A stretch of 64,000 bases of DNA from Rhodanobacteraceae bacterium ZG21-1 (lineage in GTDB: Bacteria > Pseudomonadota > Gammaproteobacteria > Xanthomonadales > Rhodanobacteraceae): NCBI GenBank assembly GCA_021390615.1, contig JAJEJU010000022.1, positions 124,001 through 188,000 of the forward strand. The letters are read 5' to 3'. A model generated the notes under the pieces. It was given only the letters and a program-made list of their open reading frames with translations. It made no database searches and was not told where the DNA came from. The position numbers and the translations under genes are program-made. Below are positions 13,617 to 19,971 of the stretch, piece by piece; position 1 is the stretch's first letter, and the number at the start of each line of letters is the position of its first letter.

Positions 13617-15530
13617 CTAGCCGGCGGCCGGCGCCAGCTTGGGCGCCGGGCAGTCCAGCCACGCGCAGACCGCATGCAGTAGCTCGGACTCCTCGGCGCT
13701 GACCACCCGGTCGGCCTGCACGGCGCATAGCAGACTCTGCACGACCAGTTCCTTCGCGGCCGGCGTGAGCGCGTTGAGCCGGTTCAAGGCCTGCTCGAAA
13801 GGAACCTGCCAGAAAGTGGGCAATGGCTTCCATGCGATGGGCTCGCCCAGCAGGGCCTGCTGCGTCGCCAGCAGCCAGGTGCGCCGCGCCTCTGCCTCAT
13901 CATGGCTGCCCCGGCTGGCCACCACGGCGACGACCAGGGCGAAGCTGTCGCGGCAGGCAAACAGCTTTTCCGTGCCGACAGCGGGCTTCACCGCACGCAG
14001 GCGCGCACGCAGCAGCAGGCAGGCGACGAATTGGCCGAAATCGCCCGGACTGCCCAGGCGAAACCACTCGTCCAAGGTATCCAGCAAGGTCTGTCGGCGC
14101 CCTTCCGGCAGTTGCGCCAGGGCGTGCACGGTCAGCTGGGTCAGCGGCAGGCGCAGGCTGGCGGGCAAGGCCCGGGCATCCGCGGAGACGGCCTCGACTC
14201 CACGCAGCATGTCGTCGCCGAAAGCCGAGGCCACCGCGCGACGGCGACGCTCCACCGCGACCGGGGAAAGCGGCGGCGCCAGCGCCAATGCCAGCGCGAT
14301 CGCCGACTCCGGCTGTCGCACGGCAGCCAGCAGCGCATCGGGAATGCGCTGGGGCCCAGGCGCCTCCTGGCGGATCGGGCTCAGGCTCGGGCCCTGCGCA
14401 CCCGCGCTCGAATCGTCCTGCTGCTCCGCGGTGTCCGGTGCATCGGCGCGCCAGTCGTGAATGTCGTCGCGATGGATATTCCGGCGCGCGGTCGACTCGT
14501 CGGCGGCATCGTCGTCGATGTGCTCAGCGGCCAGCTCGAACTGTTCGAGATCATGCTCGCTGAAACTTGGCTCGAGTTCGCGGATGCGCTTGATCAATGG
14601 CGGATGCGTGGCCATCAACGGATGCAGGCTCTCCGACGGATTGAACAGCATGTGGGCGATTTCGCGGCGATTGCCGACGCCGAGACGGGCGCCGTAGGTC
14701 GCGGTTTTTTTCAGCGCGCCGGCGAGGCCGACGGCCTGGCGGGTGAACTGCACCGCCGAGGCGTCGGCCAGCGATTCGCGCGAACGCGCCACCGCGGCCT
14801 GGATCAGCTGACCGAAGAAATAACCGATCGAGCCGATCGCCAGCAGGATCGGCCCGATGAACAAGGTGAAGCGGCTGCCGGAGTAGAAGCGATCGTCTTC
14901 GTCCGGATCCGGCGTCATCCACTCGCCGCAGACGGCCAACGCATGGATGCCGAACAGCAGCCCCATGATCCAGATGCTGAGGCGCATGTCGCCGTTGAGG
15001 ACATGGCTGAACTCGTGCGCCACCACGCCCTGCAGCTCGTCGCGATCGAGCCGCTCCAGGCATCCCTGGGTCACGCACAGCGCCGCGTCGCCATGCGCGA
15101 AGCCGGCGGCGAAGGCATTGATCGCCGATTCGCCCGGCAACACGTAGACCGCCGGCGCAGCGATGCCCGCAGCCAGCGCCATTTCCTCCACCACGTTGCG
15201 CAAGCGGCGCAGGCGCGGGTCCGCGGTGTCCTTGAGCACGCGCTGCGCTCCCACCGCCTCTGCCACTGCGCGCCCACCGGCGGACAGGCTGAACATGCGA
15301 TAGGCCGAGGCCAGCAGGATGCCGCCGAGCACGATCACCGTGGTCAGGACCAGCGGCCCGCGCATGCTGGCTTGCGTTTGGTCCGCTACGTGCATATGGC
15401 GATGCAGCTGCAGTACCAGCAGGGCCAGGACATCGACAGCCCCGACGATCGCCGCCAGCGCCAGCGCGAACAGCAGGATCAGCCGCCGCGTCAGGCCGCG
15501 CGCATGCTCTTCCCGGGAAAAAAAGTCCAT
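13617..15530 (-). CDS. M48 family zinc metalloprotease with long C-terminal extension
   Basis: A 637-residue membrane protease. Two N-terminal helices (about 15-45 and 60-80) precede the M48 peptidase domain with the zinc motif HEFSH (in ELQGVVAHEFSHVLNGD), two further hydrophobic stretches, and the third ligand region ESLADASAVQFTRQ. Residues about 320-637 form a C-terminal extension of unknown role, including an acidic linker. HtpX-like M48 proteases degrade misfolded membrane proteins. The partner lemA lies 51 bases upstream on the same strand, a pairing common in bacteria. The gene ends 7 bases from the convergent GMC oxidoreductase. Confidence 0.88.
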   Translation of the reverse strand: MDFFSREEHARGLTRRLILLFALALAAIVGAVDVLALLVLQLHRHMHVADQTQASMRGPLVLTTVIVLGGILLASAYRMFSLSAGGRAVAEAVGAQRVLKDTADPRLRRLRNVVEEMALAAGIAAPAVYVLPGESAINAFAAGFAHGDAALCVTQGCLERLDRDELQGVVAHEFSHVLNGDMRLSIWIMGLLFGIHALAVCGEWMTPDPDEDDRFYSGSRFTLFIGPILLAIGSIGYFFGQLIQAAVARSRESLADASAVQFTRQAVGLAGALKKTATYGARLGVGNRREIAHMLFNPSESLHPLMATHPPLIKRIRELEPSFSEHDLEQFELAAEHIDDDAADESTARRNIHRDDIHDWRADAPDTAEQQDDSSAGAQGPSLSPIRQEAPGPQRIPDALLAAVRQPESAIALALALAPPLSPVAVERRRRAVASAFGDDMLRGVEAVSADARALPASLRLPLTQLTVHALAQLPEGRRQTLLDTLDEWFRLGSPGDFGQFVACLLLRARLRAVKPAVGTEKLFACRDSFALVVAVVASRGSHDEAEARRTWLLATQQALLGEPIAWKPLPTFWQVPFEQALNRLNALTPAAKELVVQSLLCAVQADRVVSAEESELLHAVCAWLDCPAPKLAPAAG

Positions 15531-15581
15531 GTACGCTCCCGAGACGACTCGATGCCGGCTAGCAGGAATTCCTGGCCGGGA

Positions 15582-16169
15582 TCAGGCGAAAGACACCTTG
15601 GGCACTTCGCGCGCCGAGGCATCCTCGATCTTCAAGGGCTCGGCGGTGCGGAAGCCCGCATTGCCGGCGATCAGCGAGCCGGGGAAGACCTCGCAGCGAT
15701 TGTTGTAGACCAGCACGGCGTCGTTGTAGGCCTGCCTGGCGAAGGCCACGCGGTTCTCGGTGGAGGTCAGCGCCTCGAACAACTGGGCGGTGTTCTGGTC
15801 GGCCTTCAGCTCGGGATAGGACTCGCTGACCGCGAACAGCCTGCCCAGCGACTGGTTGAGCGCCTGCTCGGTATCCGCCAGTTGCTGCATCGCAGCGGCA
15901 TCGCCGGGCTTGGCCTTGGCATCGGCCAGTCCGCCCACCGCGGCATTGCGCGCCTGCATCACCGCTTCGAGCGTGCCGCGTTCGTGCGCCATATAGGCCT
16001 TCACGGTCTCGACCAGATTCGGAATGAGGTCGTGGCGACGGGTCAGCTGCACGTCGATTTGCGCGAACGCATTCTTGTAGCCGTTTCGCGCCGTCACCAG
16101 TCCGTTGTAGACCGAGACGAAGTACACGACAATCAACAGTAAGGCAATCAGAACAATGATCAGGCCCAC
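15582..16169 (-). CDS. lemA: LemA family protein
   Basis: A 195-residue LemA protein with an N-terminal membrane helix (residues 2-19) and the typical helical body: NGLVTARNGYKNAFAQIDVQLTRRHDLIPNLVETVKAYM, then NAAVGG...LGRLFAVSESYPELKAD and TENRVAFARQAYNDAVLVYN. The function is not firmly known. LemA proteins are usually encoded with HtpX-like M48 proteases, as here. The start is GTG 16169, preceded by GGAGAGGGG. The frame stays open for 91 codons upstream, but those do not resemble LemA and overlap the divergent hydrolase gene. Confidence 0.92.
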   Translation of the reverse strand: MGLIIVLIALLLIVVYFVSVYNGLVTARNGYKNAFAQIDVQLTRRHDLIPNLVETVKAYMAHERGTLEAVMQARNAAVGGLADAKAKPGDAAAMQQLADTEQALNQSLGRLFAVSESYPELKADQNTAQLFEALTSTENRVAFARQAYNDAVLVYNNRCEVFPGSLIAGNAGFRTAEPLKIEDASAREVPKVSFA

Positions 16170-16216
16170 GGTGTCCCCTCTCCACGCCGCCACGCCGATG
16201 ACCCAGCCAGAATAGC

Positions 16217-17845
16217 ATGACGAAACGCAAGATTTTATCGTGGGCCATCGGCCTGCTCTGCCTCTCCGCAGGCACCGCCTTCGCCACTCCGCCGGCGATC
16301 GGAAGCGCTCCCGCAGCAAGCGCCGACGCCCTGCCTTCCGCCGGTTTGCCGGCATCCGGCGCCACCGCGCCACCCTCGGCTGGCATAGCCTCCACAAGCT
16401 TGCGTGCGGCCGGCTTGCCCGCGACCGGCGTGCCTGCGACAAGCAGCGCCACGGCTCGTCAAGAGCTTCCCGCCGCGCGAGTGAAAGCTGCCCTCGCCGA
16501 CTACCAGCAATGGCTGCAGCTGCTGCAGGAGCGCAACGCCGTGGCCGGGCTCGCCACCGCCGTGGTGGTGGACGACCGCGTGGTCTTCGAGCAGACCCAG
16601 GGCTACGCCAACGCGGCCACGCACGAGCCGATCACGCCGGACACGGTGTTCCGGCTCGCCTCGCTGTCCAAGGCCTTCGCCACCGCGCTCACCTCGATCC
16701 TGGTCAAGGAAGGCAAGCTGAGCTGGGATACCCGGCTGGCCAGCGTCCTGCCCTACTTCAAGCTCAAGGATGCGGAGGCTTCCGAGCAGGCCACCATCGG
16801 CGACATCCTCGGGCAGCGGCTGGGCCTGCCGCACAACACCTACGACAACATGCTCGAGGGCAACATCCCCTATGAAGAGCTGGTGCGCAGGCTCGACGAG
16901 GTCGACATGATCTGCGGCGTCGGCCAGTGCTACGGCTACCAGAACGTGGCCTTCAGCCTGATCGGCGACGTGATCTACAGCAAGACCGGCGAGTTCTTCT
17001 ATTCGCTGGTGAACAAGCGCATCTTCGGCCCGCTGGGCATGCGCACGGCCAGCTACGGCCGCGATTCGCTGGAACTCAGCAAGAGCTGGGCCCGGCCGCA
17101 TCGCGGAGCCGCCGGCAACTGGGTGCCGTTCGAGCCGAACGAAGCCTATTACCGCGTCGCGCCGGCAGCAGGCGTCAACGCCAGCCTGCACGACATGGAG
17201 CAATGGCTGATTGCGCAGATGGGCGGCCGGCCCGACGTGCTCGACGCCCAGCAATTGGAAATGCTGCACGCTCCGGCCGTCGACACGCCGGTCGAGGTGC
17301 GCTCCACGCCCTGGCGGCGCGCGCGGCTCAGCGACGCGCACTACGCGCTCGGCTGGCGCGTGTTCGACTACGGCGACGAGACCCTGGTGTTCCACGCCGG
17401 CGCAGTGGAAGGCTATCGCACCATGATCGGCTTCTTCCCCAAATACCACGTGGGCGTGGTGACCTTGTGGAACTCGGCCGGGCCAACGCCTTCCGGCCTG
17501 ATGCCCATGGTGTTCGACGATCTGCTCGGCCTGCCGCACGAAGACTGGGCCGGCCTGGAAAGCGATGCTCCCGCCGTGGTGACCACCCGCGGGAAAGCCA
17601 AGGCCAAGTACGCCGCAGCGGATCGCCACGGCAAAGCCAAGGCTTCCGCGAAAGCGCGCGGCAAGGCCGCCGTGGCGAGCAGCAAGGCGACCGCGAAGAC
17701 CAAGTCGGCGAGCAAGGCGGTAGCCTCCAAGGCCAAGGGCAAGGCCAGCGTCGCCAGCGCGAAGGCCAGCCAGAAGACCGGCAAAAAGGGCACGACGCAC
17801 AAGAACGTGGCGACCAAGGCCAAGACGACGCAGGCAGCGGACTGA
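16217..17845 (+). CDS. Class C beta-lactamase-like serine hydrolase with Lys/Ala-rich C-terminal tail
   Basis: A 542-residue exported protein: signal peptide (1-23), an Ala/Pro/Ser-rich linker (24-80), a beta-lactamase/PBP4-type domain (about 85-450), and a Lys/Ala-rich tail (about 456-542). The catalytic motifs are intact: S149-L-S-K152, Y241-Q-N243 and H393-A-G395. Members act on D-Ala peptides, esters or beta-lactams, and the substrate cannot be read here. The tail (repeated KAKA, SKA, AKAS words) resembles histone H1-like C-termini and is very unusual for a periplasmic enzyme; it could bind anionic wall or LPS polymers. The gene is divergent from lemA and ends before a strong bidirectional terminator. 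Confidence 0.88.
   Translation: MTKRKILSWAIGLLCLSAGTAFATPPAIGSAPAASADALPSAGLPASGATAPPSAGIASTSLRAAGLPATGVPATSSATARQELPAARVKAALADYQQWLQLLQERNAVAGLATAVVVDDRVVFEQTQGYANAATHEPITPDTVFRLASLSKAFATALTSILVKEGKLSWDTRLASVLPYFKLKDAEASEQATIGDILGQRLGLPHNTYDNMLEGNIPYEELVRRLDEVDMICGVGQCYGYQNVAFSLIGDVIYSKTGEFFYSLVNKRIFGPLGMRTASYGRDSLELSKSWARPHRGAAGNWVPFEPNEAYYRVAPAAGVNASLHDMEQWLIAQMGGRPDVLDAQQLEMLHAPAVDTPVEVRSTPWRRARLSDAHYALGWRVFDYGDETLVFHAGAVEGYRTMIGFFPKYHVGVVTLWNSAGPTPSGLMPMVFDDLLGLPHEDWAGLESDAPAVVTTRGKAKAKYAAADRHGKAKASAKARGKAAVASSKATAKTKSASKAVASKAKGKASVASAKASQKTGKKGTTHKNVATKAKTTQAAD
17580..17842 (+). repeat. Degenerate repeat encoding the Lys/Ala-rich tail
   Basis: Repeats of GCCAAGGCC, AGCAAGGCG and similar triplet blocks encode a tail made largely of Lys, Ala, Ser and Thr. 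The repeat is imperfect at both DNA and protein level, so it appears to be maintained as coding sequence. Confidence 0.7.
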
Positions 17846-17915: not shown

Positions 17916-17946
17916 AAAAAAGGGCGCCTCGCGGCGCCCTTTTTTT
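17916..17946. terminator. Bidirectional rho-independent terminator
   Basis: A 7-bp stem (GGGCGCC/GGCGCCC) with a TCGC loop is flanked by six A on the left and seven T on the right, so it works for both convergent genes (the serine hydrolase and the TonB-like gene). Confidence 0.93.
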
Positions 17947-19306: not shown

Positions 19307-19816
19307 TTACTTCTTCGACGCCTTGGTGGCCTTCACCACCTTGGCAGGAGCCGCCTTCTTCGCGGCGGCCTTCTTCACAGCGACCTTCTTCACGGCAGCC
19401 TTCTTCGCGGCGGCCGGCTTCTTGGCAGCGGCTTTCTTCGCCGCCGGCTTCTTGGCGGCAGCCTTCTTCGCTGCCGGCTTCTTGGCAACCGGCTTCTTCG
19501 CGGCGGCCTTCTTCACGGTGGTCTTCTTGGCAGCCTTCTTGGCGGCCGGTTTCTTGGCAGTGGATTTCTTGGCAGTGGCCATGGTTCGTCTCAGCTCCTC
19601 ATCAGTTGGCAGTGGTTGCCCAGTAAAAGCGTGCAGGAACGCCTCCACCAGCAAATCGCTGTTGGTGGCGTGCCGAAGATTGTTGACCTGTCGGGATGTG
19701 CGCAAATCGGAAAGAAGCCGAAGGACGTGCAGCGGAATCGAGACCGTGATCTTGCGTACTGATCCGGCCTTCTCACCGTGCTCGACATAAGGCTCTATGA
19801 ATTTCGATGCTGCCAT
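19307..19816 (-). CDS. metJ: MetJ methionine repressor fused to a histone H1-like Lys-rich tail
   Basis: A 169-residue protein. Residues 1-77 are clearly MetJ, the ribbon-helix-helix repressor of methionine genes that uses S-adenosylmethionine as corepressor. The DNA-contacting strand [11 protein letters not shown] is followed by [32 protein letters not shown], nearly identical to the enterobacterial protein. Enterobacterial MetJ continues about 28 residues as a C-terminal helix. Here, from about residue 80 to the end, there is instead a Lys/Ala/Pro repeat ([10 protein letters not shown]-type units) like histone H1 or AlgP tails, giving a strongly basic nonspecific DNA-binding module. I chose ATG 19816 (GGGGAACGGG upstream). 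An internal Met79 could start a free tail. The function as a Met repressor is from family knowledge; the role of the tail is inference. Confidence 0.88.
19310..19582 (-). repeat. Degenerate repeat encoding the H1-like tail of MetJ
   Basis: About 90 codons of imperfect repeats, with an approximate protein unit [10 protein letters not shown], built from GCC/GCG, AAG and CCG codons. Such repeats tend to vary in copy number between strains. The segment begins exactly at the in-frame ATG at 19582. Confidence 0.8.
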
Positions 19817-19971
19817 GGTACCCGTTCCCCGTAATCTAAAACGAAAGCTATTCCTGAAGATTTCAGCTGTCAATTGATTTTAGCTACGAAATCAATCCAC
19901 TGCACCAGGCCGAAAGCCCCCCGAAAAGCGCCCTGGAGCAGCCTTGCAGCGATGTCGGCAAAACCAATCAA

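Follow-up and report, generated by a model that had tools for sequence, protein, structure and literature searches.

Why does an enzyme that leaves the cytoplasm end in a long Lys/Ala-rich tail of H1-like composition? The question is raised by a gene in a 64,000-nucleotide stretch of the genome of Rhodanobacteraceae bacterium ZG21-1 (hereafter the window), which encodes an exported serine hydrolase of 542 amino acids (16217..17845, + strand, stop codon included). The product starts with a Sec-type signal peptide (residues 1 to 23, MTKRKILSWAIGLLCLSAGTAFA; 16217..16285, +), made up of a basic n-region and a hydrophobic stretch and placed by eye as cleaved after AFA. We judged this export signal by visual inspection together with a home-made score, which was reached in 118 of the 125 rows with ATG starts. 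All 130 family orthologue rows have a hydrophobic stretch at the signal-peptide position, in agreement with an earlier note that had read the hydrolase as exported and had named a cytosolic location as evidence to the contrary. The mature protein is predicted to be periplasmic, surface bound, or secreted, and we infer one of the first two. Three parts follow the signal peptide: a near-neutral linker rich in Ala, Pro, and Ser (residues 24 to 85; 16286..16471, +; net charge 0 over 59 residues), a Beta-lactamase/S12-type catalytic domain (residues 101 to 426; 16517..17494, +), and, after W444-A445, a C-terminal arm of 97 residues with a net charge of +20 (residues 446 to 542; 17552..17842, +).

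By its sequence, the enzyme belongs to the PF00144/S12 superfamily of penicillin-recognising serine hydrolases (MEROPS S12-like). PF00144 matched residues 101 to 426 with an E value of 1.1e-57 (196.1 bits against a cut-off of 27) and was the only Pfam match of the protein at E ≤ 0.001. The SxxK, YxN, and HxG motifs, described as intact in the earlier note, are indeed present and kept across 50 orthologues from the order. The nucleophile motif S149-L-S-K152 (16661..16672, +) appears as S.SK in 50/50 orthologues, Y241-Q-N243 (16937..16945, +) as YQN in 50/50, and H393-A-G395 (17393..17401, +) as HAG in 48 and HGG in the remaining 2. Just before YxN lies a C233-x4-C238 pair (16913..16930, +), with both cysteines found in 50/50 orthologues; this pair is a possible disulfide, which would fit export of the hydrolase.

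A structure model built from 38 aligned sequences gave pLDDT values mostly above 85 in the catalytic core and below 50 in the linker (residues 26 to 71) and the tail (residues 455 to 460 and 465 to 542). Residues 87 to 441 of the model adopt the penicillin-recognising fold, with Z scores of 31 to 37 against PDB entries; Foldseek was also run. The best match in both sequence and fold was the PBP homologue of Pyrococcus abyssi (PDB 2qmi, which we take to be Pab87; E = 1.8e-22), with a Z score of 37.4 over 339 residues, an rmsd of 2.8, and 24% identity. That match is confined to the catalytic domain (model residues 89 to 446) and leaves the polycationic arm unmatched. The core also resembled the IS11 esterase (Z = 35.2), the FmtA-like protein Flp (PDB 4gdn; Z = 34.0 over 324 residues, at just 21% identity), ClbP (Z of about 32 to 33), and the AmpC and EstB enzymes (Z of about 31). 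Sharing this fold does not by itself point to a substrate.

Several more specific assignments were considered and rejected. The class C beta-lactamase model (NCBIfam NF033085) scored 72.4 bits against a curated cut-off of 415. The third motif of class C beta-lactamases is KTG, instead of which the orthologues of the hydrolase have the HAG or HGG noted above. The D-aminopeptidase model (NF009622) scored 76.4 bits against a curated cut-off of 443. ClbP, the D-Asn peptidase of colibactin maturation (PDB 7mdc and 3o3v), has the same fold and motif order (phmmer E = 2.1e-22). C-terminal helices anchor ClbP in the membrane, whereas in our model no helix follows residue 436 and the C end is a polar, disordered polycation, which speaks against a ClbP-like membrane-anchored peptidase.

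The unusual part of the protein is best described by its composition. The last 87 residues (456 to 542, starting at 17582) contain 26 Ala, 21 Lys, 10 Thr, 9 Ser, 6 Gly, 3 Arg, 2 Asp, and no Glu, for a net charge of +22. These counts bear out the claim of an H1-like Lys/Ala tail on an intact hydrolase. The further description of the tail as Lys/Ala/Ser-rich repeats was right about the bias and wrong about the repeats: Tandem Repeats Finder reported two short arrays in the tail, a 6-bp unit in 3.5 copies and a 12-bp unit in 2 copies, and no others. In the Pfam search (E ≤ 0.001), the tail gave no match to the HC2 profile (PF07382). At 97 residues, the arm is the longest C-terminal arm tabulated in the family set, the next being 73 residues. 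A frameshift, which according to the earlier note would undo its reading, or a misread end was likewise rejected, given that the tail is in frame (third-codon-position G+C of the arm, 0.88) and the basic ends of relatives are in frame too. The tail is thus the extreme of a family trait, neither the product of a frameshift nor a peculiarity of one genome.

To describe that trait, we compared the hydrolase across related genomes. It had a match at E ≤ 1e-60 in 53 of 61 genomes (own, family, and order) and, in a sample of 137 family genomes, an orthologue at E ≤ 1e-100 in 132. The source genome is the sole representative of its genus code in the genome set. Named relatives comprised 76 loci from Dyella, Rhodanobacter, Luteibacter, Frateuria, Fulvimonas, and unnamed bins; removal of a truncated locus (L132) and one with 39% identity (L133) left 74, and in 71 of these the net charge of the C-terminal arm (median length, 28.5 residues) is +3 or higher. 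Arm sequences differ greatly, being Lys/Ala in Luteibacter, for instance, and Arg/His in Rhodanobacter. In the family set, from which one sequence with a motif outside the pattern used (L204) and one with fewer than 40 residues before the domain had been dropped, the basic arm can also lie at the other end of the protein. Among 130 rows, it was found at the C terminus only in 88, in the N-terminal linker only in 26, at both ends in 4, and at neither in 12. Removing one row with a wrongly set start (L169) from the "both" class lowered that class to 3, so that 117 of the 129 orthologues tabulated have a basic arm at one end at least. N-type linkers resemble H1 tails as well: the linker of L193 has a net charge of +16 over 72 residues, and its C end a charge of −4.

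The 12 family rows that lack a net +3 arm by Lys and Arg mostly have His-rich C ends, and 11 of them reach +3 when His is counted as charged. Such His-rich arms, in place of Lys/Arg ones, were seen in L028, L240, L242, L245, L247, L252, and L253, mostly of genus code g18; L247 shares its His-rich arm with a named relative, Dyella acidiphila (L120). These arms might be charged only at acid pH. Among 14 order orthologues from outside the family, a C-terminal arm reached net +3 in 6 and an N-terminal arm in none. Of six paralogues of the hydrolase in its own genome, the four with ends read all have neutral ends. Relatives of the hydrolase were also found in 368 plasmid records, all below 60% identity and none covering 80% of the query.

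A widespread basic arm could nonetheless reflect neutral drift, in which G+C-rich DNA fills unconstrained ends with Arg and Ala and slippage at AAG/GCC yields a Lys/Ala tail of no function. We regard this as rather unlikely, although part of the evidence is in its favor. When the DNA of the window arm was shuffled 1,000 times, the mean net charge was already +12.1 and the observed +20 was reached in 82 shuffles, within the null; across the set, per-protein charge lay beyond the DNA-composition null at the 5% level in 3 of 36 rows. Because shuffled G+C-rich arm DNA is already positive, charge arguments from single proteins call for caution. Drift would also accommodate the free variation in arm length and sequence. 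It does less well with lysine, seldom encoded by DNA of this composition: the 97-residue arm of the window protein contains 21 Lys, compared with a mean of 4.3 over the 1,000 shuffles. The scarcity of tandem structure in the tail likewise tells against slippage.

As a control for base composition, we took each protein's second disordered end, the G+C content of which is similar to that of the basic end. The C end was the more basic in 94/94 proteins of 20 genera and the N end in 25 of 26 proteins of four genera (g5, g15, g17, and g26); for these four N-type genera, the "basic end" was assigned after the data had been seen. In genus g9, the C end was the more basic in 8 of 9 proteins, and the linkers are Lys-rich too; its 9 rows were left out of the own-DNA shuffle comparison. 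In that comparison of 120 rows, charge exceeded the shuffle mean at the basic end in 105 and at the other end in 3. Lysine was in excess (P ≤ 0.05) at the basic end in 73 of 120 rows and at the other end in 7, and genus means agreed with the contrast between ends in 24/24 genera. Since the other end is not basic at similar G+C content, drift in G+C-rich DNA alone is insufficient to account for the arm. On the tree, the four states of the trait are strongly clustered and require 12 changes. Five independent contrasts fall on supported branches, too few for a significance test of compensation between the ends, and this small number is a further point that drift can claim. Taken together, the end switch suggests selection for charge, short of proof, because it comprises few evolutionary events.

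A different origin for the tail, recombination within the genome, was implied by the earlier note, which had pointed to a second Lys/Ala-tailed protein nearby. That protein is present about 1.5 kb away: it is the MetJ repressor (19307..19873, − strand; Pfam MetJ at residues 24 to 104), with an AKK/KPA-type H1-like tail of about 90 residues that resembles HC2 at a level below the HC2 cut-off. Proximity is what commends the MetJ gene, or another Lys/Ala-tailed gene, as donor of the hydrolase tail. However, the MetJ tail was present in 72 of the 73 relatives with MetJ found (the exception, L103, is a read ending early), and those relatives have hydrolases with short Lys/Arg arms. In addition, the likeness between the DNA of the two tails was equaled in 56 of 200 codon shuffles. 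Both distribution and DNA similarity thus speak against a tail derived from MetJ, the chance of recombination as its source appears very slight, and the suggestion that such tails spread within this genome does not hold. The family-wide occurrence of the MetJ tail indicates that it is old; it places an H1-like tail on a DNA-binding repressor throughout the family.

Lys/Ala tails elsewhere in the genome were surveyed in a sample of 371,535 bases that includes the window. The hydrolase is one of 3 genes among 234 with a Lys/Ala-rich C-terminal 50 residues, a count that is low for low-complexity genes in view of the home-made gene caller having missed MetJ. By a crude signal-peptide rule, 30 proteins in this sample pass, and 4 of these, the hydrolase included, carry a net charge of at least +3 over their final 25 residues, consistent with the statement that exported proteins rarely carry such tails. 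A whole-genome search with the hydrolase tail gave weak matches at three further places (E = 0.14 to 1.6), and a search with the MetJ tail found one (E = 5.2e-4). Other Lys/Ala-rich proteins were noted in their own right: one of 279 residues, H1-like over its first ~190 residues (L158:1315-2154; G000:C17, near 742,600-742,950), an EcsC-like protein with a Lys/Ala C-terminal tail (L144:12218-13048; Pfam E = 2.4e-5, below cut-off), and one further tailed protein in the genome sample without a Pfam match.

The order hydrolase (+), TonB-like gene (−), metJ (−) is found in 73 of the 76 named loci. Between the convergent hydrolase and TonB genes, an A-run, a GGGCGCC/GGCGCCC hairpin, and a T-run were read directly from the DNA (17916..17946) and look like a terminator for both strands. 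A promoter and terminator pattern scan listed nothing, this hairpin included, possibly as a result of pairing between the A and T runs. Upstream of the hydrolase lie divergent LemA and M48 peptidase genes (13617-16214, −); these are beside the hydrolase in 34 of the 76 named loci and absent from the same stretch elsewhere.

How might the arm serve the enzyme? We propose that the exported S12-type hydrolase is kept on an anionic polymer of the envelope by its arm, a disordered polycationic tether, and we judge the case for this reading evenly balanced. In its favor are the near-universal orthologue with complete motifs, the basic arm in 117 of 129 family rows, the contrast between ends, the predicted disorder, and the neutral ends of the paralogues; against it are the per-protein charges that seldom exceed the DNA null, the clustering on the tree, the assignment of the basic end after the fact in the N-type genera, the low share of basic arms (6 of 14) outside the family, and the 12 family rows without a net +3 arm. 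Ser149, activated by Lys152 and Tyr241, would be acylated by a peptide or ester of the envelope, probably bearing a D-amino acid, to give an acyl-enzyme. The arm would act as a flexible electrostatic tether to that polymer, for which the phosphates of LPS core or lipid A and the carboxylates of peptidoglycan are candidates. If charge and flexibility alone matter, the sequence of the arm, its length, and the end that bears it would be free to change; in the species of the window, the arm may have grown to about 95 residues by codon-biased expansion of Lys and Ala. More tentatively, and with rather more doubt than belief, the arm may be a sequence-free localization signal throughout the family, its charge kept while it moves between ends to dock the hydrolase, with arm length tuning dwell time. 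If such a charge-only signal is real, the His-rich arms of relatives would be a pH-switched version of it.

Two other functions for the arm were weighed. In one, the arm is a releasable cationic peptide with an antimicrobial or matrix role, the enzyme serving as its carrier. An arm that is polycationic, disordered, and exported has the right general properties, but we saw no conserved cleavage site, switching between ends ill suits a precursor peptide, and the hydrophobicity of the arm is low, unlike that of most membrane-active peptides; we consider this explanation highly improbable. In the other, the arm binds nucleic acid, either extracellular DNA in biofilms or incoming DNA in the periplasm. 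Outside the cytoplasm, LPS and peptidoglycan far exceed DNA, and it is there that the protein is exported; moreover, the hydrolase lacks the HC2 match mentioned above, and in many genera the arms are short and Arg/His-rich. DNA binding accordingly seems improbable, if less so than peptide release, despite a composition that resembles H1-type tails and two precedents in the excerpts of the literature that we draw on: DNA binding is reported for the KPAA domain of AlgP, which is like histone H1 in composition (PMC9239181), and nucleoid association for the surface protein HBHA, whose C-terminal domain is Lys-rich (PMC10665949).

Known systems offer partial parallels to the tether that we favor. 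HBHA of Mycobacterium tuberculosis is a surface protein whose C-terminal domain of Lys-rich repeats binds heparan sulfate, according to an excerpt of PMC3293801; like the window protein, it has a Lys-rich C-terminal domain, and its partner is an anionic polymer. It differs in having no enzyme domain and, from an excerpt of PMC6032435, no typical signal peptide, so that the resemblance is one of working principle, and we claim no kinship. AlgP/PhaF-type and Hc2-type proteins have Lys/Ala-rich disordered C-terminal domains like the arm of the window protein (for AlgP, the excerpt cited above), but work in the cytoplasm, on DNA or on granules, whereas the hydrolase is exported. On the enzymatic side, excerpts of PMC12505958 and PMC10241514 describe FmtA and DltE, of related fold, as enzymes whose targets are D-Ala esters on anionic glycopolymers. 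The parallel with these teichoic acid D-Ala esterases is limited by their substrates being Gram-positive. Among titles and abstract openings of the open-licence literature, we recognised no enzyme, exported or periplasmic, that carries a Lys-rich tail.

In Gram-negative envelopes, enzymes are known to be positioned through lipid anchors, transmembrane helices, binding domains, or association into complexes. If a core enzyme of a whole family retains a disordered cationic arm that varies in sequence, length, and end, docking by charge alone in the periplasm would become directly testable, and natural variants are at hand for comparison, with arms of 10 to 97 residues that are N or C terminal and rich in Lys or His. 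More generally, DNA binding need not follow from an H1-like composition when the protein is exported.
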